Source: a virus
IMG/VR virus record: IMGVR_UViG_3300022932_000011
Coordinates: 1 to 38,036 of that record
Length of the DNA: 38,036 bases
Reading direction: 5' to 3' (one strand)
Shown here: positions 2,816 to 38,036 of the stretch, piece after piece
Layout: the number at the start of each line of letters is the position of its first letter
Position numbering within the stretch: the stretch's first letter is position 1
Notes under the pieces: generated by a model
What the model saw: only the letters and a program-made list of their open reading frames with translations
Databases searched by the model: none
What the model was told of the DNA's origin: nothing
Translations under genes and position numbers: made by a program

Positions 2816-4771
2816 ATGGTTTATAGATCACCGCAAGAGATACCAACAGAATATGTTAATGGTACAAAGCCACGTCAAACAGTTAATTCCGCTAAATGGT
2901 GGACATTGCCAGATGATCAGGCACATCAATCATTAATCTCTCTTGTTAATTACATCAAAGACAATCAGTCATATCGTCAGGACCAACATCTTCTTTATAA
3001 TAAGATGTATTCTAATAAGAATATGGCAGGTCTTACTGCGGATCAATATGCCAGAGATACTTCTAAAGGCAAATTAACTTATAACGTTTCCAAGTCTTGT
3101 GTTGATACTGTGTTTTCTAAAATAGGCAAGAACAAACCACGTCCGATGTTTCTTACTGAAGATGGTGATTATTCACTCCGTAGAAAAGCGGAATTACTGT
3201 CACAGTATATGGAAGGCGAGTTTGAGCGTACCAAGGTGTATGACCATGGCGGTCAATCATGTAAAGATGCTCTTATTTTTGGAACAGGAGCTCTCAAAAT
3301 ATTCATTGATACCAATGATATGCAGATCAAGGTGGAACGAGTTCTTACAGCGGAATTAATCATTGATGATGCAGAAGCGATGTATGGCTGTCCAAGGCAG
3401 ATGCATCAGGAAAAGCAAGTTGATAGAGATGTGCTTATGGAGATGTTTCCAAAGCATAAATCAAAGATTCAAGAAGCTAATCCTGTATCACAGAAATCAT
3501 ATACAGCCTCAATGGCAGATAACGTTCTTGTTACTGAATCATGGCGCCTTCCATCCAGCTCAACAGCATCAGACGGAAAGCATACCATTGCTATTGATGG
3601 AGCAACATTATTTTCAGAACAATATAATAAATCTTATTTTCCATTTGCGTTTCTTCGCTGGAATTCAGATGTTATAGGCTTCTGGGGCGTTGGTCTCTGT
3701 GAAGAATTAACAGGTATTCAGTCGGAAATAAATAAGACAATAAAAACGATATCCAAATCATTGGAATTAATGAGCAATCCACGTGTTTATATTGAATCAT
3801 CTTCTAATGTTAATCACAAAGATCTAACTAATTCCATCGGCGGCATTATAAAATACACCGGAACACTTCCATCACAAGCAACTCCAGCAGCAGTAAATCC
3901 AGAACTATACCAATATCTAGAAACATTGTATTCCAAAGCATATGAAATCACTGGTGTCTCAAGACTATCAGCTAATTCACAAAAGCCAGCAGGACTAGAT
4001 TCCGGCGTGGCATTAAGAGAATATCAAGATATCGAATCCGAGCGTTTCCAAATCTTTGGTCAGCAATATCAACAGTTTTATATTGATATCGCACATCAAA
4101 TGATTGATCTATCGAAGGAACTATACGATCTTAATAAAAAGAAAAGACAAAAGGATCCAGAATACAAACGTGAATTAGAAGTCAAGATAAGTCATTCACG
4201 TAATTCAGCTAAATTCATTAAGAAGATTAAATGGAAAGACGTTGATATGGATGAAGATCAATACGAACTATCGATCTTTCCAGTATCACAGCTTCCACAA
4301 ACTCCAGCAGGTAAATTAGCTTATATCCAAGATCTAATGAAAGGCAATCTAATTCCTGTAGAAGAAGGATTGAAGCTTCTTGATTTTCCTGACCTTGATT
4401 CATATATGCAACGAGCTAATGCTGATATTGATAATACCGAGCGCATTCTTGAAGCAATGATAGATACAGGAACCTATCAGCCACCAGAACCATTTATGAA
4501 TTTACCTCTTGCTCAAAAGATAACACAACAAACATATCTTCGTGCTCGTTGTGATAACTTATCAGAAGATCGTTTAGAATTACTACGTGAATTCATGGCA
4601 GATATTCAAGAACTATTGAATCCTGCTCCAGATCCTTCTGCCGCACCTCCAGCATTACCACCAATACCAGGAGGTCCAATGATGCCACCAGGAGCACCAG
4701 GACCAGGAATGTTACCAGAAACTTTACCAGGAATGCCTCCAGCAGGTCTTCCTCCTATGCCAATAGGTTAA
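2816..4771 (+). CDS. Portal protein
   Basis: A 651-residue protein forming the dodecameric ring at one capsid vertex through which DNA enters and leaves, and to which the terminase and tail adaptor dock. It directly follows the terminase and precedes the scaffold and capsid genes. The sequence has podovirus-portal character: an early WWTLPDDQAHQSL segment, a central helical stem region and a helical C-terminal part. The last 45 or so residues are a low-complexity Pro/Gly/Met tail (APGPGMLPETLPGMPP), which is unusual and may lie disordered inside the head. The ribosome site is AAGGAG ten bases before ATG. Confidence 0.88.
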   Translation: MVYRSPQEIPTEYVNGTKPRQTVNSAKWWTLPDDQAHQSLISLVNYIKDNQSYRQDQHLLYNKMYSNKNMAGLTADQYARDTSKGKLTYNVSKSCVDTVFSKIGKNKPRPMFLTEDGDYSLRRKAELLSQYMEGEFERTKVYDHGGQSCKDALIFGTGALKIFIDTNDMQIKVERVLTAELIIDDAEAMYGCPRQMHQEKQVDRDVLMEMFPKHKSKIQEANPVSQKSYTASMADNVLVTESWRLPSSSTASDGKHTIAIDGATLFSEQYNKSYFPFAFLRWNSDVIGFWGVGLCEELTGIQSEINKTIKTISKSLELMSNPRVYIESSSNVNHKDLTNSIGGIIKYTGTLPSQATPAAVNPELYQYLETLYSKAYEITGVSRLSANSQKPAGLDSGVALREYQDIESERFQIFGQQYQQFYIDIAHQMIDLSKELYDLNKKKRQKDPEYKRELEVKISHSRNSAKFIKKIKWKDVDMDEDQYELSIFPVSQLPQTPAGKLAYIQDLMKGNLIPVEEGLKLLDFPDLDSYMQRANADIDNTERILEAMIDTGTYQPPEPFMNLPLAQKITQQTYLRARCDNLSEDRLELLREFMADIQELLNPAPDPSAAPPALPPIPGGPMMPPGAPGPGMLPETLPGMPPAGLPPMPIG

Positions 4772-5762: not shown

Positions 5763-7007
5763 ATGGCTCTAGATTTAGATAGTTTTGATGCGGCACTTAA
5801 AACGCACTATACCAATGACCGCGTAGTTGATATGACTTATGACCAACATCCATTACTTGCGATGTTACCAAAGATGTCAGATTTCACCGGACGTGATCTT
5901 GTAATTCCAGTTCTTCGTGGTAATCCACAAAATCGTTCGATTGAGTTTTCAGTAGCACAAGCTGGTGTTTCAACTTCAGAAGTTGATGCATTCACCATTA
6001 AACGTGTTCACGACTACTCACTCGCAGTAATCGATAACGAAGCTATGTTAGCTTCTAAAGGTAATCCAGGAGCATTTCTTGATGCAACTACTACCGAAAT
6101 CGACGGTGCAATCAACTCACTTTCACGCTCACTTGCTACCAAGCTTTACAAAGATGGTTTCGGCTGGGTCGGTCGTGTAGCTGGTGCAGTTACTGGTGAT
6201 ACTCTAACACTTGAATCAGCTGACTCTGTCACTGCATTCGAAGTTGGACAAGTTATTCAGTTCGCTGCTCTTCCAGGTTCAGGCGCACTTAAAGACGGTG
6301 GCGATAAGCTTACTGTAGTTGGTGTTGACCGTTCATTAGGCAAACTCAAGGTCAGTCCTAATTTAGAAAACATCGCAGGTATCGCTGTTGGCGATTACAT
6401 CTTCTTCGAAGGTGACCGTGATAATCTTTCCTCACCACGTCGTAAGGCGATTGCTGGTCTTGATGCATGGATGCCTTACGGTGGTCCATCAGCATCACTC
6501 TTCTTCGGTGTTGATCGTACTGTTGATACTCGTCTATCTGGTCTCTGGATGGATGGTACTAACATGCCAGTTGAAGAAGCACTTATCAAGGCTGCATCAC
6601 TTGTTTCACGCGAAGGCGGAAACGTTGATTATGCTTTCATGAGCTTCTCACAATTCGCACAACTTGAAATCGCTCTTGGTGCATCAGTAATGCGTACCAA
6701 TCTAAAGGTTGGCGAAATTGGTTTCTCAAGCCTCCGTGTAAACGGACCAAAAGGTGAAATCAAAGTCGTAGCTGATCAAGATTGTCCAGAAGATGATTGC
6801 TTCATGTTAACCATGAAGACTTGGAAGCTTTACTCACTCGGTGGTAAACCAATCCGTAACATCGGCGAGACTGATGGTAATGGCAGAATGCTACGTAAAT
6901 CAAATGCAGATGCAGTCGAAGTTCGCTACGGCTACTATGCACAACTTGGTTGTTCAGCTCCTGGTCACAACATCCGCATCAAATTAGCCAAGCCAGTAGG
7001 CTTCTAA
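5763..7007 (+). CDS. Major capsid protein
   Basis: A 414-residue protein in the capsid slot directly after the scaffold. The N-terminal MALDLDSFDAALKTHYT and the RDLVIPVLRGNPQNRS stretch resemble the N-arm and spine-helix region of capsid proteins in podoviruses with the HK97 fold. A mid-protein insertion rich in Gly, Asp and Val (about residues 140-220: VGDYIFFEGDRDN) looks like a surface domain. Codon use is cleaner and more biased to C-ending codons (TTC, ACC, GAC) than in its neighbours, as expected for the most highly expressed virion gene. Confidence 0.88.
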   Translation: MALDLDSFDAALKTHYTNDRVVDMTYDQHPLLAMLPKMSDFTGRDLVIPVLRGNPQNRSIEFSVAQAGVSTSEVDAFTIKRVHDYSLAVIDNEAMLASKGNPGAFLDATTTEIDGAINSLSRSLATKLYKDGFGWVGRVAGAVTGDTLTLESADSVTAFEVGQVIQFAALPGSGALKDGGDKLTVVGVDRSLGKLKVSPNLENIAGIAVGDYIFFEGDRDNLSSPRRKAIAGLDAWMPYGGPSASLFFGVDRTVDTRLSGLWMDGTNMPVEEALIKAASLVSREGGNVDYAFMSFSQFAQLEIALGASVMRTNLKVGEIGFSSLRVNGPKGEIKVVADQDCPEDDCFMLTMKTWKLYSLGGKPIRNIGETDGNGRMLRKSNADAVEVRYGYYAQLGCSAPGHNIRIKLAKPVGF

Positions 7008-25273: not shown

Positions 25274-27112
25274 ATGTTTATTAATGCTGCGCAACACATG
25301 GCGCCTAAAAAACCAACTCAAATCGCACTTCCGACGTATATCAAAGGAACAAATGTTAGTTCCATGACTACGTATTACGCTACTCAATTTCCTCCTAAAT
25401 ATTATCCAGAAGATTCAGGTAGCAATACATTTCCGATTAAACAAGCAGACGTAGATTACATCGCATCAAAAGGATTTAATTTCGTAAGATTATTGTTTAG
25501 TCATGAAATCATTCAACCTAATGGAGCTTTCACTGATTTTGATACCAAAGCAATAGGCTATCTAAAAGATCAAGTTGATATGTTTATGGCTAAAGGCAAT
25601 ATCCATGTTAGTTTAGCTGTTCACGCTGGAGATGATCCTGGTTTCGGAAAATACTATGGAAATACGTTTGTTAAAGGTGGAACTGTAAGTCCTGGAGCTG
25701 TACGTGCTGACTTCTATCGTCGTTTAGCTGAAATCTTTCGTAGTTATGATCGTTTGCATTGGAGTTTTGATAACGAGCCACAAGGTCAAAATATCAATAT
25801 CTTTTCCTGGATGCAGGAATGTATTAACGCCGTTGCTCATATCCACGGAGGTAAACACTTTATCAATGGTGGCTATTTCTCTGGTGGCGTTAGCTGGACG
25901 AATTCCGGCAGCGACCAAGGATCTCCTAAAATTTCTAATGCCACAGCGGCATTGACATTGACACATCCTTATGGAATAGATAATTTAATTTTCTGTACAC
26001 ATAATTACGCAAACTCCGCAGCTGGTGGTGGATCTACTGTTGTACCAACTACGACTGTATTAAAAGATGAAGCACAAGGCTTTTATCAATGGCTGGTTGA
26101 TAACAATAGATATGGCATTATCGAAGAATGGGGCGTACAACAATCGTCTACTAACGCCGTTGCTTGTTCACAAGATTTTATCAACTGGGTGAAATCAGTA
26201 TCTGTGACATTAGGCGGCAGATTATATGGTCAAGTTTGGTGGACATATGGACGTCCGATTGCATGGTCAGGATATCAATATACTCTTGCTCCAACTTCTA
26301 TGACATATGTAACTGATTCTGCTCAAATGACTATGATAACAAGTCAAGGTTATTTCACAGATCCAGTGGCGTTCGATCCTCTTACAGCTGTTCCTGGTAT
26401 TTATGCCAGACACCGTGCATCAGATTATAACGTTGGAACATCTACATTAGCTAACTCCGCAGGTGTTGGTGATTCAACTCGTAATATGGTTCTTGCAACT
26501 GGTGGTAACTTCGTAGCAGCGGACTTTTCAACATCTGATTCTGATTTCAATGGTCTTGCCAGTATTGGATCTACATCAGTTACTGGTGGTCGAAATGTTG
26601 GTTTGGTTAATGCCGGAGGTGCTAATTTAACAACAGCTATTTCTGGAGCATGTACTGTTTATGGTGTTTATTTCATCAATGCTGCACCTACACCTTCCAG
26701 TGCTTATCTTCGAAGCAATAGAACTATTCTTGCTGGTGGTTCTACAACCGCGCTGCTCGTAAACAGTCCTGGTTTGTATTACTTCTATAGCTATCAATCT
26801 ACACGAGATAACGTCAGCGTTGTAGGCGGTTCTACAGGAGCTTCTGGAGTTGGAACTGTTATTGGTGTTAAGATTATCTGTACAGTTTTAAACGGCGCCT
26901 CAAGCGCAACTTATGTTAATTCCAATACAGCATTGTCAACCGGTAATGCCGGAACAGCTTCGATTACCAGTCTTGGTTATGGAAATCCAAACGGACAAGC
27001 GGCTGTTTGGAGAATGAGTCAAACCTTGATTTATTCCGCAGCTCATACCACAGGTGAACGTACCAGCGTAATGAATTACCTTGGTCAATTATATGGAATA
27101 ACTATTGCATAA
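25274..27112 (+). CDS. Tailspike with GH5-like glycoside hydrolase and C-terminal lectin-like domain
   Basis: A 612-residue protein. Residues about 20-340 show the (beta/alpha)8 GH5 (cellulase-type) signature: VRLLFSHE with the conserved Arg (R72), WSFDNEPQ with acid/base E168 in the NEP motif, THNYANS with H243 and Y245, GIIEEWGV with nucleophile E285, and VWWTYGRP (W322/W323). All expected catalytic residues are present. Residues about 373-612 (YARHRASDYNVGTST, GDSTR, closing AAHTTGERTSVMNYLGQLYG) form the LamG-like module also seen at 22685. There is no signal peptide, so it acts as a virion enzyme. The likely target is a beta-glucan-type capsule or cellulose. Final gene of the adhesin cluster. 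Confidence 0.8.
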   Translation: MFINAAQHMAPKKPTQIALPTYIKGTNVSSMTTYYATQFPPKYYPEDSGSNTFPIKQADVDYIASKGFNFVRLLFSHEIIQPNGAFTDFDTKAIGYLKDQVDMFMAKGNIHVSLAVHAGDDPGFGKYYGNTFVKGGTVSPGAVRADFYRRLAEIFRSYDRLHWSFDNEPQGQNINIFSWMQECINAVAHIHGGKHFINGGYFSGGVSWTNSGSDQGSPKISNATAALTLTHPYGIDNLIFCTHNYANSAAGGGSTVVPTTTVLKDEAQGFYQWLVDNNRYGIIEEWGVQQSSTNAVACSQDFINWVKSVSVTLGGRLYGQVWWTYGRPIAWSGYQYTLAPTSMTYVTDSAQMTMITSQGYFTDPVAFDPLTAVPGIYARHRASDYNVGTSTLANSAGVGDSTRNMVLATGGNFVAADFSTSDSDFNGLASIGSTSVTGGRNVGLVNAGGANLTTAISGACTVYGVYFINAAPTPSSAYLRSNRTILAGGSTTALLVNSPGLYYFYSYQSTRDNVSVVGGSTGASGVGTVIGVKIICTVLNGASSATYVNSNTALSTGNAGTASITSLGYGNPNGQAAVWRMSQTLIYSAAHTTGERTSVMNYLGQLYGITIA

Positions 27113-29473: not shown

Positions 29474-29512
29474 TCAGATGTCGATTTTTATTTTAATGTC
29501 GATTCGGAAATA

Positions 29513-29540
29513 CAAAAAATCCAGCTATTTCTAACTGGAT
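29513..29540 (-). terminator. Leftward rho-independent terminator
   Basis: Read on the minus strand: ATCCAG, ten-base loop, CTGGAT, then TTTTT. The six-bp stem with U-run closes the leftward transcripts from 30.1 kb and separates the secreted-peptide cassette from the nuclease gene. The 29541-29669 stretch between it and the next gene shows no supported gene. Confidence 0.65.
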
Positions 29541-29669
29541 CATTTGCAACAATTCCAAATTACTCAAGACCATCAAGAGAATTAGTAGACCGATGAGCTT
29601 ATTTAAACATCGATCCATACATTATATATATCGTTATTACCTGATTTCAGGAGAAATTTCCAATCTTTT

Positions 29670-29813
29670 TCAATGGATGAAAAAACTAAAAATCATTCCG
29701 AGTCCACCGAGGCAAGTAAGATAATTCCAGTTCTGATGAGCTGTGGTATCGGCGTATGTAAATGACGCTCCAAGAATACCAAGCACCATCATGATTACAA
29801 ATAAAACGATCAT
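29670..29813 (-). CDS. Small two-span membrane protein
   Basis: A 47-residue protein from the ATG at 29813, whose A-T-G-A overlaps the stop of the secreted-peptide gene (29810-29813). Alternative starts are ATG 29828 (52 residues) or TTG 29855 (61). Two hydrophobic stretches (MIVLFVIMMVLGILGASFTY and LTCLGGLGMIFSFFIH) flank a short polar loop. The ATGA coupling argues that it works with the secreted peptide, for example as a partner, transporter part or immunity-type protein; the pairing is seen, the role is inference. Confidence 0.5.
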   Translation of the reverse strand: MIVLFVIMMVLGILGASFTYADTTAHQNWNYLTCLGGLGMIFSFFIH

Positions 29814-29992
29814 CTTGGACCTGTGCATTGAGTAATGCTGCCAGTAACGATACAAGTAGTACCGTTAGAACAGAAAATAGTGTTTCCTACGCGCTGGCAA
29901 GTCACAGACTGCGCTTGCGCCTCTGTAGCAGCGAAGAGTGCGATAACAGAAAGAGAGAGAATAGAGACGATTAGTTTTTTGATGTTGTTCAT
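29810..29992 (-). CDS. Secreted four-cysteine peptide with signal peptide
   Basis: A 60-residue protein. The start is the ATG at 29992, after AAGGAAATCAA, rather than the upstream start at 30052. Residues 1-27 are a textbook Sec signal (NNIKK, then LIVSILSLSVIALFAA, then TEAQA) with cleavage after AQA27. The 33-residue mature peptide has cysteines at 32, 41, 47 and 56, spaced 8-5-8, in two TCxxxGxxxxC half-repeats (TCQRVGNTIFC and TCIVTGSITQC), so two disulfides in the periplasm are likely. The gene has a near-consensus promoter and richer G+C upstream, as expected of an acquired 'moron'. Function is unknown; superinfection exclusion or envelope modification would fit. Confidence 0.7.
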   Translation of the reverse strand: MNNIKKLIVSILSLSVIALFAATEAQAQSVTCQRVGNTIFCSNGTTCIVTGSITQCTGPR

Positions 29993-32486: not shown

Positions 32487-32504
32487 CTATTTTCATCCTT
32501 ATTA

Positions 32505-32618
32505 TCAGTAGCATCTGGCTACCTCTGTCTTCCTATAAATATACCATTTCAGTGATAGAAATGCTAAAAAATAAATAAAATAATTAAAATAAAATAGTAG
32601 AAATAGAAGACCGGTCAT
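32505..32618 (-). CDS. 37-residue membrane microprotein (candidate operon leader gene)
   Basis: ATG at 32618 follows AAAGGAG with five-base spacing, one of the best ribosome sites in the window; TGA is at 32507-32505, 18 bases before the next ATG. The product is one hydrophobic helix (GLLFLLFYFNYFIYFLAFLS, residues 3-22) with a basic, polar tail (KWYIYRKTEVARCY). An alternative ATG at 32622 gives only 12 codons and is too close to the ribosome site. It may be a membrane-acting effector or a leader peptide. Confidence 0.5.
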   Translation of the reverse strand: MTGLLFLLFYFNYFIYFLAFLSLKWYIYRKTEVARCY

Positions 32619-32669
32619 TCATTCTCCTTTTCAGGATCAGAAAAACCGGTTTGCAGTAAAACTTCTACT
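32596..32669. repeat. Nested inverted repeats upstream of the small-gene operon
   Basis: AGTAGAA (32596-32602) pairs with TTCTACT (32663-32669). Inside it, TAGAAG (32604-32609) can pair with CTTCTA (32662-32667) as an alternative, and two ACCGGT palindromes lie at 32610-32615 and 32645-32650. The element includes the ribosome site and start of the 37-residue gene, so pairing could control its translation. Confidence 0.45.
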
Positions 32670-32916
32670 CTCAACTTTTAGAGAATCTACTTCGTTTCGT
32701 TTTAAGTCAACCTATACTTGAGGAGTCTGTACTTATCTTCAGCTTCTGTCTAACTCGCGCTAGATTTGTTCATCAGATTTTCTGCGGCGCCACTGTTTCT
32801 AAATCGTGCCTAACTAACTTTTGGATATCTCCTAAATCGAGATATAGATATATTATTCTATTACCTACTTCTTTGTAGTTCTGCAGTGCAGAAAATAAAG
32901 AATAAGAAAGAAACAA
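32619..32916 (-). other. Non-coding leader region of the leftward small-gene operon
   Basis: Nearly 300 bases without a supported gene, between the terminator of the helicase operon and the microprotein gene. It holds a possible promoter (32682-32710), hairpins TTCTGC-AGT-GCAGAA (32879-32893) and ATATCTC...GAGATAT (32825-32845), and a GGCGCC palindrome near 32786. It may be a structured leader RNA or promoter/operator zone; nothing more can be seen. Confidence 0.5.
32682..32710 (-). promoter_or_regulatory. Possible promoter of the small-gene operon
   Basis: On the minus strand TTGACT (32710-32705), a 17-base spacer and GATTCT (32687-32682). The -35 is good and the -10 poor. A start near 32675 would give a leader of about 57 bases before ATG 32618. 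A promoter is needed here because a terminator lies just upstream at 32912-32945. Confidence 0.35.
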
Positions 32917-32945
32917 AAACACCAGGAACGGAGGACCTGGTGTTT
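32912..32945 (-). terminator. Leftward terminator of the helicase operon
   Basis: AAACACCAGG (32917-32926) pairs with CCTGGTGTTT (32936-32945), a 10-bp stem with a nine-base loop. On the minus strand the second arm runs into TTTTTGTTTC. It ends the helicase / zinc-ribbon transcript 40 bases after the stop at 32986. Confidence 0.8.
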
Positions 32946-32985
32946 CTATATGCCAAGACGTATTCAATGTCTTACAAATTATATA

Positions 32986-33453
32986 TCAAGCAAAGTTAGC
33001 TAATCTTTTGTATTTTTCAATTAATTTTTTGAATTCTGATTTAGTTATAAATTCATCTTTTGTATTTTGAAATCTAATTATTGTTGATCGATTTTCTGGT
33101 GTGTCAATGGCACAAACTTTCCATTTTATTTTTAAAATATCAAACAATATTATTGATCCTTCGGAAGGATAATTATCTACTGATACTTTATAACCAAGAC
33201 CATCTACATATTCTTTAAATAAAATATGAGCTGGTAAATATTTATGAGCAGCTTCTCCACTCCATCTAAAACCTTTATCTAAAATTTCATAATCAACTTC
33301 TTTGAAATTTGGATAATTTGTTTTGAAAGCATCATGATCTTTGCAGTTAGCACAAACTGCCATACCTTCATAGTCAGCTGGAACATCTTCATTTGGCATA
33401 TGATATCCAACTATTTTATATTCTCCGCACATTTTACAAGCACTTAATTCCAT
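32986..33453 (-). CDS. Zinc-ribbon protein downstream of the helicase
   Basis: A 155-residue protein. Cys pairs CKMC (6-9) and CANC (34-37) form a four-Cys zinc ribbon at the N-terminus. The rest is mixed alpha/beta with a C-terminal basic helix (FITKSEFKKLIEKYKRLANF). The start shares one base with the helicase stop (TAATG), and both end at the terminator at 32912-32945, so it is probably a partner of the helicase in DNA replication or recombination. Family not recognised. Confidence 0.65.
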   Translation of the reverse strand: MELSACKMCGEYKIVGYHMPNEDVPADYEGMAVCANCKDHDAFKTNYPNFKEVDYEILDKGFRWSGEAAHKYLPAHILFKEYVDGLGYKVSVDNYPSEGSIILFDILKIKWKVCAIDTPENRSTIIRFQNTKDEFITKSEFKKLIEKYKRLANFA

Positions 33454-34820
33454 TATTTATCTCCTAAATTTTTTAAATACACAGTTCCTTTATTTGTGTG
33501 TTTGCTAAACCATCCTAATGAAACCATTATTTGGCTCACCTTCTGTGGATACACCTTGGTTTTTGGATCATAGCCTTGTGCTATGGAATTTGCATCTAGT
33601 CCAGAAATTCTTCCAAGCTCATTATAATCTTCTAATTTAGAAATCATCCAATCAGTCAATGGATCTGATTCCATAAATTGTTCATTTGAAATATTAAGCA
33701 TTTCACTTTCTTCTTCATTTAGAAAGTGACTTTCACCAGATTCGTATGCTTGAACAGCTTCTGACCAAAGTGCTTCTTTAATTTCTTTTAATTTATCAAG
33801 ATCTACTTTTTGATTTCTTTCAACTTCAACACACCAAAATCTACGATTGCCTGTTTTATCAACAAGGATATTCATGTTATTTGAGGTTCCGCCAAATACC
33901 ATCATGCGAGGAACATTAACAGAATCATTTTCAAATTTAGGAACATAAGTATCAACTGAATTAGTTAAATAATCTTTAACACTTTCTAATTCATTTTTCT
34001 TAAACGAACTTAATTCACCGAATTCAATAAGAAACTTACCACGAAATGTTTGAGTTGCTTTTTGAATATTATCAAGATCAACTTTACCAGAAATATAATA
34101 TTCAGGTTTAGGATTTAATATTTTAAAGAAGCTGGTCTTTCCTGCGCCTTGATCTCCGCAAAAGATCAATGCACTATGAACTTCAGTTCCTGGTACCATT
34201 GCACGAGCAACGGCACTGATAAGCCATTTACGACCAAGAATACGATTGATTGGCGTATCCTTTACCTTACAGATATCAACCAAATAATTATTTAAATAAT
34301 CAGTTTTGCATTTTGGTAATTTTGTAAAATAATCTTTCAATGGATTAAATTCATTTTGTAAAGCAACATGATTAACAACTCGTTTAAGAATATCGTTATT
34401 TATACTTCCACCAAGATAAAAATTATTCATTGCGATTTCAATATCACCACGTAATTTAGTGCTTAATGGTTTGGAATCAATATAAATACGACCATCAAAA
34501 ATGGAATAAGCTAATTTTGGAAATAAGTGTTTCATTACTAAAACATAGTTATTGAAATTAGGTATTAAAGTTATAGTGTTTTCTTTTTTAAAGAAACGCA
34601 TCGCCTCATCATAATAACCATATTTACGGATGCAATTTTCTTTTAATTCGTTTTTAACATTTTCTTTCTTTTGATTAATATTAAAAACCTTGGCTGCTGC
34701 TTCTTTTTCAGCAGCAATAACTTCTGGACTGTCTGGAATATAATAAACCTCTGAATCATCAGAATCGTTTAAGTAGTCAGAAAAATTGAGAATATCTGTA
34801 TCATTACATTTGTTGTGCAT
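33453..34820 (-). CDS. VapE/VirE-type replicative helicase (P-loop NTPase)
   Basis: A 455-residue protein. I take ATG 34820 (after AAGGAAATTTATA) rather than the in-frame GTG at 34874. The virulence-associated E ATPase domain is clear: Walker A GDQGAGKT (222-229), Walker B-like FLIEFGEL (263-270), GGTSNN (310-315) and the arginine-bearing GNRRFWCVEV (324-333). The C-terminal 60 residues (MISKLEDYNELGRISGL onward, ending GTVYLKNLGDK) look like a winged helix that could bind DNA. No primase motif is seen in the N-terminal part. It sits next to the iteron array, a layout like that of SaPI Rep initiator-helicases, so self-initiation at the array is a testable idea. Confidence 0.85.
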   Translation of the reverse strand: MHNKCNDTDILNFSDYLNDSDDSEVYYIPDSPEVIAAEKEAAAKVFNINQKKENVKNELKENCIRKYGYYDEAMRFFKKENTITLIPNFNNYVLVMKHLFPKLAYSIFDGRIYIDSKPLSTKLRGDIEIAMNNFYLGGSINNDILKRVVNHVALQNEFNPLKDYFTKLPKCKTDYLNNYLVDICKVKDTPINRILGRKWLISAVARAMVPGTEVHSALIFCGDQGAGKTSFFKILNPKPEYYISGKVDLDNIQKATQTFRGKFLIEFGELSSFKKNELESVKDYLTNSVDTYVPKFENDSVNVPRMMVFGGTSNNMNILVDKTGNRRFWCVEVERNQKVDLDKLKEIKEALWSEAVQAYESGESHFLNEEESEMLNISNEQFMESDPLTDWMISKLEDYNELGRISGLDANSIAQGYDPKTKVYPQKVSQIMVSLGWFSKHTNKGTVYLKNLGDK

Positions 34821-34878
34821 TATAAATTTCCTTGTTGAAGAATAAAGAACTTCGTTGTGTGACCAGCTCTTCACAATA

Positions 34879-34906
34879 AATATATCATTATGTATAGATT
34901 TGTAAA
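34879..34906 (-). promoter_or_regulatory. Promoter of the helicase operon
   Basis: On the minus strand TTTACA (34906-34901), a 16-base spacer and TATATT (34884-34879) with an extended TG in front (TGATATATT). Start near 34872, leader about 50 bases. It lies just after the terminator at 34923-34970, so the helicase is transcribed separately from anything coming out of the repeat array. Confidence 0.6.
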
Positions 34907-34920
34907 ATAAAAATGAAAAT

Positions 34921-35057
34921 AAAAAACTGCTGGCTCAAACGTACGCACAACCATACTCGCCAGCAGTTTTACATTCTTCTTCAACAGACACAACAATCTC
35001 ACGATTGTATTACTTATATACCGCGAAATGCCTAACTTTATTATATTTTTTAATGTT
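34921..35057 (-). ncRNA. Possible short RNA from the array edge
   Basis: A minus-strand TATAAT (35069-35064) touches the first iteron, and the strong terminator lies about 135 bases downstream. Between them is no supported gene but a 6-bp hairpin with a four-base loop (ACAATC-TCAC-GATTGT, 34993-35008). A short transcript here could act as a replication primer or regulator. No good -35 is visible, so this is tentative. Confidence 0.3.
34923..34970 (-). terminator. Strong terminator beside the repeat array
   Basis: AAAACTGCTGGC (34923-34934) pairs with GCCAGCAGTTTT (34959-34970): a perfect 12-bp stem with a 24-base loop. On the minus strand it ends in TTTTTT. It shields the helicase promoter from leftward transcription out of the array, and can also stop rightward transcripts (GTTTTAC). 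Confidence 0.75.
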
Positions 35058-35072
35058 TCTGGTATTATAAAG

Positions 35073-35360
35073 GTGACAGACAATGGTGCCTCTGTCACTC
35101 CTCTGTCACCTTCTCTGTCACCTCTGATATCCTATGATTTACGATGTATTATTGCAAAAGTGACAGAGTGACAGAGAAAGTATGAAAAAGTTTACCGGCG
35201 CCAAAAGCATTCCTATACCTCTGTTCATCCGCCAGGAAAGATCAAACACCAAATTCTCTGTCACTCTGTCACTTTTTTCTTTAAGTAGCTGTTTTTATTG
35301 AAGAATGTCGGTGACAGAGAAGGTGACAGACACCTGTTTTCTCTGTCACTAGTGACAGAG
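35073..35360. repeat. Dyad-symmetric iteron array, candidate replication origin
   Basis: Twelve exact copies of GTGACAGA: forward at 35073, 35160, 35168, 35311, 35323, 35352; reverse (TCTGTCAC) at 35091, 35102, 35114, 35257, 35265, 35342. Eight lie in two nested inverted repeats with the same centre, 35216: an outer pair of 22-base arms (35101-35122 / 35310-35331, one mismatch) and an inner pair of perfect 23-base arms (35156-35178 / 35254-35276), 33 bases apart on each side. A perfect 20-bp palindrome, CTCTGTCACTAGTGACAGAG, lies at 35341-35360. The region has no gene and divides the two transcription arms. Iteron-type origin and operator are the main readings. Confidence 0.85.
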
Positions 35361-35380
35361 GATATTCTTGGCATTGAGGT

Positions 35381-35752
35381 ATGCACTATCTCTATGTTAT
35401 CAGAAATTCTTTAAACGGAAAGATGTATATTGGTAAATCTATTAATCCAATAAAACGATTAAAACAACACCTCGCGGACAAATCCTCTAAACGCCTTGCT
35501 AAAGCGATTCGAGCTGACGGTAAGGATAAGTTCCAGCTATACGTCATCGCAGAGTTTAAAACTGATTTAGAGGTATCTGTGGCTGAACTGTTGTTCATTG
35601 ACCAGCTCGGTACAGACGATCCAGATCTAGGTTACAACGGTTTAACAAACTGGAAATATATTTCTAAAGAAATAAGAAAACAATATAGAAAAAAGAAATA
35701 TGAATTATCAAAATCACCTTCAGAGATATTAGAGATATTACCTATATTATGA
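35381..35752 (+). CDS. GIY-YIG nuclease
   Basis: A 123-residue protein consisting of one GIY-YIG domain: LYV (4-6), YIG (16-18), catalytic-type R26, H30 (RLKQH), E69 in SVAELLFID and N86 in LGYNGL. A lysine-rich C-terminal helix (KEIRKQYRKKKYELSK) can bind DNA. It starts 21 bases after the 20-bp palindrome of the array, with a TTGAGG ribosome site, so array-bound protein could repress it. It may be a free-standing homing-type nuclease or have a role at the origin; no separate targeting domain is visible. Confidence 0.85.
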   Translation: MHYLYVIRNSLNGKMYIGKSINPIKRLKQHLADKSSKRLAKAIRADGKDKFQLYVIAEFKTDLEVSVAELLFIDQLGTDDPDLGYNGLTNWKYISKEIRKQYRKKKYELSKSPSEILEILPIL

Positions 35753-35762
35753 AATATCTATT

Positions 35763-36257
35763 ATGGAAAAGAAAGATTCAAAGGAATTAGATACCTCTAC
35801 CTGGGCGACTGTAATTTATAATGGTGATACTTACCTCGTTAATCCACTTTACATCGGTCCGGTTGGAATTCAAGAAGCTAAAACTATTGCTGACGGCTAT
35901 GGATGCGAGTTACCAAGTCCAGGTCTTGTAGATGCAATCTTTAAACAAGCTGACTGCCGCCTCAACGCTCTTGAATTCGTTCGCCAGCACAATGGCACAC
36001 CAGCAACGATGTCAAGTTTAAAGGTCCTCCAGGAGCAGCAAGAACATATCCGTAATTCATTAGGACAATGGATCCTAGCTAATGGACCATTTCAGTTATC
36101 AGCAGGCTATGGTAAGGATGTTGTTATTTCTAATGGCACATTAGGAATTTATGGCTGGCACCGTCTTAATGGAAAACCAATACAACCATTTTATGGAAAA
36201 CATTCTACATCATGGAAAGATTACAGTCAGCTTCTTCGGTTAGTTAAAAAAATATAA
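35763..36257 (+). CDS. Conserved protein of unknown function, possible lytic or hydrolytic enzyme
   Basis: A 164-residue protein. Conserved-looking blocks: EAKTIADGYGCELPSPGLVD (38-57), AGYGKDVVISN (114-124) and IYGWHRLNGKPIQP (129-142) followed by H147 and KDYSQLLRLV (152-161). I recall this block order from uncharacterised bacterial and phage proteins. The clustered invariant-type H133, H147, D153 and Y154 look like an active site. Because no standard endolysin is recognisable in this genome, this is one candidate for the wall-cutting enzyme; its location outside the late lysis region and lack of export signal weigh against that. Confidence 0.5.
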   Translation: MEKKDSKELDTSTWATVIYNGDTYLVNPLYIGPVGIQEAKTIADGYGCELPSPGLVDAIFKQADCRLNALEFVRQHNGTPATMSSLKVLQEQQEHIRNSLGQWILANGPFQLSAGYGKDVVISNGTLGIYGWHRLNGKPIQPFYGKHSTSWKDYSQLLRLVKKI

Positions 36258-36265
36258 GGATAATT

Positions 36266-36568
36266 ATGAAATCAGATTGGAAATGTTTATCAAAAGGTTG
36301 TAGCAATAAGAACTTTCATTACTCCGGCTTTATGAAATGTAAGATTTGTGATGCGCTCCATCATTCGAAACAAGATGGCAGTTATTCTTATTACTTCGTT
36401 AATCCTAATGACAGCTTCGCACAAGAATTCGATAAAATCATAACCTATGATAATGAAACAGGTAAAACAACTCTTTCTATTAGAGAAGGATCTAATCCTC
36501 CTGTTCTTTATACTGACCATGGTAAACTAACTGCCAATGATTTTACCAGAAATTTACTGGATAATTAA
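36266..36568 (+). CDS. Small RanBP2-like zinc-finger protein
   Basis: A 100-residue protein with DWKCLSKGC (C7, C12) and MKCKICDA (C25, C28) separated by a short loop with aromatic residues: the W-x-C-x4-C...C-x2-C layout is like RanBP2-type zinc fingers, which bind single-stranded RNA or proteins. The remainder (FVNPNDSFAQEFDKIITYD onward) is unassigned. It follows the 164-residue gene by eight bases (AAGGATAATT ribosome site). Confidence 0.6.
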   Translation: MKSDWKCLSKGCSNKNFHYSGFMKCKICDALHHSKQDGSYSYYFVNPNDSFAQEFDKIITYDNETGKTTLSIREGSNPPVLYTDHGKLTANDFTRNLLDN

Positions 36569-36693
36569 AATTAATTAAAACAAGAAATAGTTTCTCAATG
36601 TATAAACTTTATTTCGCCGATGAAAACTAATGTTTTTTAATTTCCATAGTAATCTCTCGACAAAACAACAAGACGAAACTTTCTTTTGCATGA

Positions 36694-36699
36694 TATACT
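36694..36699 (+). promoter_or_regulatory. Extended -10 promoter before the non-coding RNA
   Basis: TGATATACT gives an extended -10 (TG-N-TATACT, TATACT at 36694-36699). The -35 (AAGACG near 36670) is weak, which extended -10 promoters tolerate. It would start an RNA near 36706, and no gene follows before the terminator at 36887-36918. Confidence 0.5.
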
Positions 36700-36705
36700 C
36701 GAAGG

Positions 36706-36918
36706 AGTGATAACGAGTGAGAGGATGTCATGTTTTCTTTGAAGTAGTTAGGATCAGAGAAAAGAATCTCTGAATACTAAAGAGAGAAGAACTAGTATAG
36801 GCGCCAATATTATTTTCTCTTTGTTATATAGATCTGTGTAGTCATTGTATTTTTGTCATTATTTGTCCTCTGACTTCCAATAGAAGAACCTCCAGCCGTC
36901 ATCTCTGGAGGTTTTTCG
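36706..36918 (+). ncRNA. Candidate structured non-coding RNA of about 210 bases
   Basis: Between an extended -10 promoter and a strong terminator there is no ORF over about a dozen codons. The sequence folds locally: CAGAGA/TCTCTG (36755-36772, six-base loop); AAAGAGAGAA with TTTTCTCTTT (36779-36788 / 36813-36822, one G-U) with a 24-base loop carrying ACTAGT and GGCGCC; and the terminator hairpin. Promoter, order of hairpins and terminator together are what a phage small RNA looks like. A long structured leader for the downstream genes is less likely because of the terminator. The whole gap 36569-37017 is otherwise empty. Confidence 0.5.
36887..36918 (+). terminator. Strong rho-independent terminator
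   Basis: AACCTCCAG (36887-36895), a nine-base loop, CTGGAGGTT (36905-36913), then TTTCG: a 9-bp G+C-rich stem with a five-T run. It ends the rightward transcripts from 35.4 kb and the candidate RNA, about 100 bases before the 204-residue gene. Confidence 0.85.
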
Positions 36919-37017
36919 TTTCTATAATCTTAAACTAATCTGAACTATTTTAAACTATTTCAGACATTTCTATGATTTATCTTAACTATCTTATAGAAGG
37001 AAAGAAAAGAGAAGGAA

Positions 37018-37632
37018 ATGAAAACACGAACACCAAAGAAAAAGAAACCACTAGCCAAGACACGACAAGACAGCACAAAGAATAAATCACCAAAAGCTGA
37101 TATTAATTCCAAAACTGTAGAATTATTTGATTGTCCAAATTTCTGGCTAAAGAAATACAATGCAACAAAGATAAAAAGATTTATCTATAAAACCTCACGA
37201 TCATATTTTCTGTGGATGAGAATAGATTCTGATTATATTAATGAGAAATTTCAAACTCAAGAAGAAGCAGAAATCCAGCTTCAAACGATATTGAGTCGCC
37301 ATGACATTAAACCAGAATTAAAACTTGTTTCCAGTCACGGACTGCTCTTACCACAGGAGCCAATCAAAATCGATTCCACAGTCATTCTACGAGCAGCAAA
37401 CTGTAGTTTCACCGCCACTGACATCAGTCATCATCTGCAAGAACACTATTTCGATCTTACCAATAAGAATCTAACACCTGATCAACTTATTCTTCTTAAT
37501 ATCGCAATACGATTAACGAATAAAAATACTCTTCCAAAGATTTGGCTTAATGGTGTAATGAGTAATGAAGAATTACAAAGATCATTTCGTGATATGGACT
37601 ATAAAACTTTTTTGTCACTGATATCGAAATAA
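37018..37632 (+). CDS. Hypothetical protein with very basic N-terminus
   Basis: A 204-residue protein. Residues 1-27 are almost all Lys/Arg/Thr/Pro/Ser (KTRTPKKKKPLAKTRQD), probably disordered and DNA- or RNA-binding. A folded part follows with YKTSRSYFLWMRIDSDY, EEAEIQLQTILSRH and a C-terminal helical section (LTPDQLILLNIAIRLTNKN; SNEELQRSFRDMDYKTFLS). The ribosome site is GAGAAGGAA. It precedes the candidate small terminase and follows the terminator, so it may be the first gene of the late operon and a candidate regulator or packaging factor. Not recognised. Confidence 0.6.
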   Translation: MKTRTPKKKKPLAKTRQDSTKNKSPKADINSKTVELFDCPNFWLKKYNATKIKRFIYKTSRSYFLWMRIDSDYINEKFQTQEEAEIQLQTILSRHDIKPELKLVSSHGLLLPQEPIKIDSTVILRAANCSFTATDISHHLQEHYFDLTNKNLTPDQLILLNIAIRLTNKNTLPKIWLNGVMSNEELQRSFRDMDYKTFLSLISK

Positions 37633-37685
37633 ATTCCAATATCACTACATTAAAAGATATAAAATCAGTTAACAGATGTAAAATC

Positions 37686-37997
37686 ATGAATAAAACAGTA
37701 AAAGAAAGAAAAACTAAAAAGACCAAATCAAAAAATATCGATGAGATGTTTAATGATTGTACTGTTATTTTGTCCAAAGAAATAGATAAAATAGCCAAAT
37801 TACAATCTAACTCCGAAGAATTATTAGATCCAAAAGCTGTAGCTGTACTAACAGATACAATGAGAACATTTATTTCCTATAAAAAAGAAGAACGAGTTGC
37901 TTCGCTTAATAATGACTTATCCAAGATTGATGAAAATTCATTAAAAGATCTGGCAAAAACAGCGATACAATTTATCGAGAAAAAGGAAAAACAATGA
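37686..37997 (+). CDS. Candidate terminase small subunit
   Basis: A 103-residue protein: basic N-terminus (NKTVKERKTKKTKSKN), helical middle (IDEMFNDCTVILSKEIDKIA) with LDPKAVAVLTDTMRTFISYK, and a C-terminal helix (ENSLKDLAKTAIQFIEKKEK). The pattern 'DP..V..L...MRT...YKKEE......L..L....L..LA..AI' is like small helical terminase subunits, which form rings that recognise the packaging site. It is the nearest small helical protein upstream of terL, separated by the GNAT gene and two small genes. The call is from position and pattern, not a firm match. Confidence 0.5.
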   Translation: MNKTVKERKTKKTKSKNIDEMFNDCTVILSKEIDKIAKLQSNSEELLDPKAVAVLTDTMRTFISYKKEERVASLNNDLSKIDENSLKDLAKTAIQFIEKKEKQ

Positions 37998-38036
37998 GTC
38001 AGCAAAATACACCGATAATATACAGACCACCAACTC
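37910..38036. repeat. Terminal overlap, right copy
   Basis: Identical to bases 1-127. It ends inside the start of the GNAT gene (ATG at 37994, the same as 85). The repeat should be collapsed when the circle is closed. Confidence 0.95.

Follow-up and report, generated by a model that had tools for sequence, protein, structure and literature searches.

A strong terminator and a candidate promoter in the gene-less stretch upstream of the late operon of a circular phage genome

Gene order on the circular genome

The window analyzed here, 38,036 nucleotides, is the whole of an IMG/VR record and is a phage genome. Judged from its sequence it appears to have no close known phage: the terminase showed about 23-24% identity to phage records among the matches listed, and the capsid had no match among phage records. 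The two ends of the record are identical over 127 bases (1-127 and 37910-38036), a repeat that is most likely an assembly overlap, which gives a closed circle of 37,909 bases. Because the record is a circle, genes cut at the 38,036 end continue at position 1, and the operon that begins at 37018 runs on into the terminase, portal, and capsid genes. Across the junction, the 37018 gene is followed by 37686-37997, then by 85-564, and then by the virion genes. A preliminary description had proposed a promoter-terminator unit between the rightward genes and the late operon. This placement was confirmed and sharpened by the circular gene order, which puts the unit directly upstream of the late (virion) operon, about 100 bases from its first gene. 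The features of the genome that matter for the argument are listed below.

1189-2574: terminase (family match)
2816-4771: P22-like portal (family match)
5763-7007: SU10-like capsid (family match)
33453-34874: VapE-type helicase, a member of the leftward gene set
35381-36568, plus strand: short rightward operon with a GIY-YIG nuclease gene first
36266-36568, plus strand: last gene of the short rightward operon, an open reading frame of 100 aa with four cysteines (C-x4-C, C-x2-C)
36691-36699, plus strand: extended -10 element TGATATACT (TG-A-TATACT), seen in the sequence, with transcription expected to start at about 36706
36706-36918, plus strand: expected short leader transcript of about 213 nt, predicted from the promoter and the terminator
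36755-36771, plus strand: local hairpin 1, CAGAGA...TCTCTG, from folding, not above chance
about 36780-36820, plus strand: local hairpin 2, from folding and inverted repeats, not above chance
36883-36917, plus strand: intrinsic terminator with 13-base arms, a 9-base loop and a T-rich tail, nearly bidirectional
37018-37632, plus strand: first late-operon gene, downstream of the terminator, an open reading frame of 204 aa

The last gene of the rightward operon occupies what we take to be the position at which lambdoid phages carry Q. Neither its product nor that of the first late gene (37018-37632) had a family match. The single-sequence structure model of the 100-aa protein was uninformative (pLDDT 37), and that of a 164-aa protein was unusable (pLDDT 36). 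The antiterminator profiles PF03589 and PF06530 had no match in the phage's own genome (0/1) at E values up to 10, and PF03589 had none in 30 relatives. Sites resembling boxA occurred at chance level in the search (17 found, 21.97 expected). Inspection by eye recognised no QBE, no clear pause element, and no direct repeat; the bases GATAAC at +4 to +9 agree with TATAAT at 4 of 6 positions.

Several other regions of the genome deserve mention in their own right. More striking than the promoter-terminator unit is the region 35073-35359, which holds 12 of the 13 GTGACAGA octamers of the window (0.78 expected) in a mirror-symmetric array centred near 35216. Its inverted arms are perfect over 23 and 21 nt, and it separates the helicase genes, which run leftward, from the rightward GIY-YIG gene; from its sequence it is likely an iteron-type origin, or else a divergent operator. 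A 75-aa open reading frame (34871-35098) overlaps both the array and an extended -10 element (34887) and may not be a gene, and the true start of the helicase may be an ATG some 50 bases downstream of the listed GTG. In a second gap, 32487-32985, a strong and nearly bidirectional terminator occupies 32906-32951; about 280 bases there carry no frame other than one of 64 aa that starts with TTG, after which comes a possible hydrophobic protein of 37 aa behind AAGGAG (32505-32618, minus strand). Part of another apparent gap is filled by a small hydrophobic leftward open reading frame (29670-29819), possibly encoding a membrane protein. The late-operon protein encoded at 25274-27112 has a glycosyl hydrolase family 5 (cellulase) domain (E 8.9e-23) and is possibly a polysaccharide-degrading tail enzyme. 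Finally, GGCGCC is present seven times in the genome, and the three copies in gaps (32786, 35197, and 36800) all read GGCGCCA while the four genic copies all read GGCGCCT, a pattern of small numbers that was noted post hoc.

Terminator, candidate promoter and predicted leader

The terminator at 36883-36917 is real. An inverted-repeat search gave its arms as 36883-36895 and 36905-36917, and the 51-base stretch that contains it folds at -19.1 kcal/mol (z -5.17), with none of 200 shuffles as good. In a genome-wide terminator scan it ranked first on the plus strand and, read backwards, second on the minus strand, and none of 200 shuffles of the gap sequence reached its strength. A consensus terminator scanner missed it because the loop has 9 bases and the limit of the scanner is 8. 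The strong terminator of the preliminary description is thus borne out, and it lies between the candidate promoter and the first late gene.

The sequence of the extended -10 element at 36691-36699 makes it a plausible promoter. No -35 was seen by eye at the usual spacing, and a sigma-70 scan listed no match at this position. When the 449-base gap was dinucleotide-shuffled 1000 times, an extended -10 with at least five of six matching bases arose in 163 of the shuffles, and 28 elements of such quality are present in the whole genome on both strands; the element alone therefore proves little. The stricter form TGNTATANT has eight sites in the genome, four of them inside genes. The other four are found where a gene or operon begins, on the correct strand:

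36691, plus strand
34887, minus strand
32546, minus strand
29476, minus strand

In nine sense-strand gap segments (2,291 bases) we counted three TGNTATANT sites with 0.30 expected, a number reached by 10 of 2000 shuffles, where both the class and the nine segments were picked after the sites had been seen and the 34887 site, inside a predicted open reading frame, was left out of the count. The plus strand carries just the site at 36691 and one intragenic site (14415), and hence the class offers the late operon no other candidate promoter. A TGNTATANT-type class of extended -10 elements in this phage is plausible. The extended -10 promoter that had been proposed for the unit consequently stands in part: the element is present and sites of its class stand at the start of three further genes or operons, but it has no -35 and is weak when considered alone.

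Transcription from this element to the terminator would yield a leader of about 213 nt. Both local hairpins that had been described in it exist, but without the terminator the leader (36706-36874) folds no better than its shuffles (z -0.37; 66 of 200 fold as well), so that the two hairpins are no evidence for a structured RNA. With the terminator included, the z score is -2.51. When 1264 windows of 120 bases were folded genome-wide, the plus-strand windows of the gap took ranks 78, 150, 318, 811, 847, and 1225. The absence of a protein from the unit holds, as there is no plus-strand open reading frame of at least 20 codons within 36700-36918; an 18-codon GTG frame at 36717-36773 lies behind AAGGAG, a Shine-Dalgarno sequence that straddles the expected transcript start (about 36706). 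An Rfam search gave no match at the gathering score, the weak matches being at chance level and far below it. A search for duplexes between the leader and 46 start regions in the phage's own gene set produced no clear partner, 2 of 40 shuffles being equally good. With structure beyond the terminator at chance and no Rfam match at gathering level, the earlier proposal of a dedicated phage small RNA was not upheld. A separate regulatory RNA has no positive support here, and the gene-less stretch is most simply a control leader or an operon boundary.

Homologues and related loci

Searches with blastn against phages returned no match for 35300-38036 and six matches at E 0.5, taken as chance, for 36560-37020; against plasmids 36560-37020 returned nothing. 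The exact terminator pattern had no occurrence in viral_contigs. Gap DNA had matches in 6 of 32 whole records at E values of at most 0.1, all of them short and rejected as chance. The best whole-record match (1.9e-4), in a bacterial assembly, was rejected on the same grounds; it covers only 36585-36642, an A+T-rich segment upstream of the promoter. The neighbouring proteins were similarly isolated. That of 36266-36568 had no homologue in viral_contigs or phages, and one of 33 records gave a partial match in a 677-aa frame at E 0.01. That of 37018-37632 was found neither in viral_contigs nor in any of 30 records, and that of 35763-36257 had a match in one phage record and, among 33 records, in one bacterial assembly, where it falls within a frame of 339 aa.

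Relatives were found by their virion genes. Capsid patterns gave 3, the capsid alignment kept 80 of 147 plus 3 in genomes, and portal patterns gave 10, while TerL patterns and helicase patterns found no relative. The comparison set, all from the same broad group, comprises 85 loci and a later 10, taken from the capsid and portal searches, with roughly 40-52% identity in capsid and portal. None of these 85 + 10 loci carries the gap DNA (best blastn E values of 1.2 and 0.15, respectively) or the genes 35763-36257, 36266-36568, 37018-37632, and 37686-37997. From the rightward operon only the GIY-YIG gene was matched, in one of the 85 (L086).

L089 and L090 are among the closest relatives by terminase and portal. 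The record of L090 begins very near its late operon, and the upstream comparison rests on L089, in which a stretch of about 435 bases before the late operon (3376-3811) has no strong terminator, likely contains a leftward gene, and folds like its shuffles (z -0.12). Four other relatives have a conserved stretch of about 750-800 bases with several terminator-like hairpins just upstream of the late operon:

L064, 2750-3545
L077, 3555-4312
L048, 1845-2631
L053, 1-763

In the alignment of these four sequences, a small sample, 17 of 180 predicted pairs are changed on both sides. The stretch of L064 had no match in the phage collection. None of the four stretches resembles the window; what they demonstrate is limited to the occurrence of stretches of this kind at this position in the group. 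From the company of these four relatives, our guess is that they are marine.

Readings of the promoter-terminator unit

We tentatively read the unit as a leader that serves the late (virion) operon, with controlled read-through, and regard this reading as possible rather than probable. Host RNA polymerase would start at the extended -10 element, synthesize the leader, and halt at the terminator. The late genes from 37018 on (terminase, portal, capsid, and tail) would be expressed once the polymerase passes the terminator, either with the help of a phage antiterminator from the upstream rightward operon or by partial read-through, and the short RNA would be a by-product of the late switch. A role of the unit in the timing of late expression is plausible, and we infer the transcript, the control of read-through, and the identity of an antiterminator. 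A late leader is supported by the strong terminator, which on the circular map precedes the first late gene by about 100 bases, and by the recurrence of the promoter class at other starts; the lack of a known antiterminator family, the weak promoters downstream of the terminator, and the lack of a comparable terminator in L089 count against it.

The lambdoid PR'-tR' region under Q control (lambda 6S RNA, phage 21, and other cases) has the order of promoter, gene-less short leader, intrinsic terminator, and late operon that the unit would have with its candidate promoter and predicted leader, and each arrangement is preceded by a short operon that stops close to the promoter. There, the late promoter PR' and the terminator tR' give a short constitutive RNA, and termination is overcome by Q (PMC7873438, PMC6606751). 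The known QBE lies between -35 and -10 (PMC6606751), whereas the element described here is an extended -10 without a -35 or a recognised QBE, and no protein of the Q family was found. Since no known antiterminator family was detected, we do not class the unit as a lambdoid Q-controlled leader. The antiterminator AlpA has no sequence similarity to Q (PMC7969949), so that a missing Q match leaves an antitermination mechanism possible. In Stx phages the terminated late leader is processed to the trans-acting small RNA StxS, and thus a late switch and a small RNA need not exclude each other (PMC7873438). The predicted RNA would resemble StxS in being short and in spanning the interval from a late promoter to the terminator that follows it; StxS is, however, bound by Hfq, processed by RNase E, and has known targets (PMC7873438), whereas the RNA considered here is a prediction from sequence alone. 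IsrK of the prophage Gifsy-1 is a further comparable case, a short terminated RNA that adjoins an antitermination circuit and is read through into the genes downstream; unlike anything seen here, it targets its own longer form in trans (PMC4825925).

A serious competitor, nearly as likely as the late leader, is a plain operon boundary. The terminator would then end the 35381-36568 operon, 36569-36882 would be a long 3' UTR, the extended -10 would be spurious or minor, and the late promoter, perhaps dependent on an activator, would lie within 36919-37017. Such a boundary fits the finding that 16% of gap shuffles contain an extended -10 of comparable quality, and it fits the order terminator, promoter, gene that is seen at 29509-29550 and 29476 of this phage. 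Beyond the terminator, a TATAAT is visible by eye at 36923-36928, and TTTAAA-16-TATGAT at 36949-36976 has 9 of 12 consensus positions, although the promoter scan that yielded it is at chance level and these post-terminator promoters fall outside the TGNTATANT class of the phage. An exact TCTGAA-N14-TTCAGA (36939-36964) also follows the terminator, but this inverted repeat is unremarkable (at two mismatches, 4 found and 3.78 expected). It speaks against a plain boundary that it would leave 314 bases between the stop codon and the terminator stem without an open reading frame of at least 40 codons in an otherwise compact genome.

The remaining readings carry less weight. A discrete, gene-less promoter-terminator unit of typical length would suit a dedicated small RNA acting in trans by pairing with mRNAs of the phage or the host, and StxS provides a precedent, but the leader structure is at chance level, neither an Rfam match nor homologues were found, and the 46 phage start regions offered no convincing partner; we consider this reading unlikely. 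Very unlikely, in our view, is a more specific combination, in which the phage is one of a little-known group that has a P22-like portal, the unit is a late leader, the antiterminator belongs to an unknown family with the 100-aa four-cysteine protein as the candidate, and the short RNA also acts in trans. The least probable reading is a DNA element (for example in replication, in packaging, or as an operator) instead of an RNA. The gap is gene-less and adjoins the late operon, and there are GGCGCC copies in gaps, but the geometry of the terminator is of the RNA type and the likely origin, the iteron array, lies elsewhere.

If the antitermination version of the late-leader reading is false, the unit would be an ordinary operon boundary. 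If it is true, the unit would represent a late-gene switch in phages without a recognisable Q, and the small cysteine-rich protein encoded just upstream would be a candidate new antiterminator.
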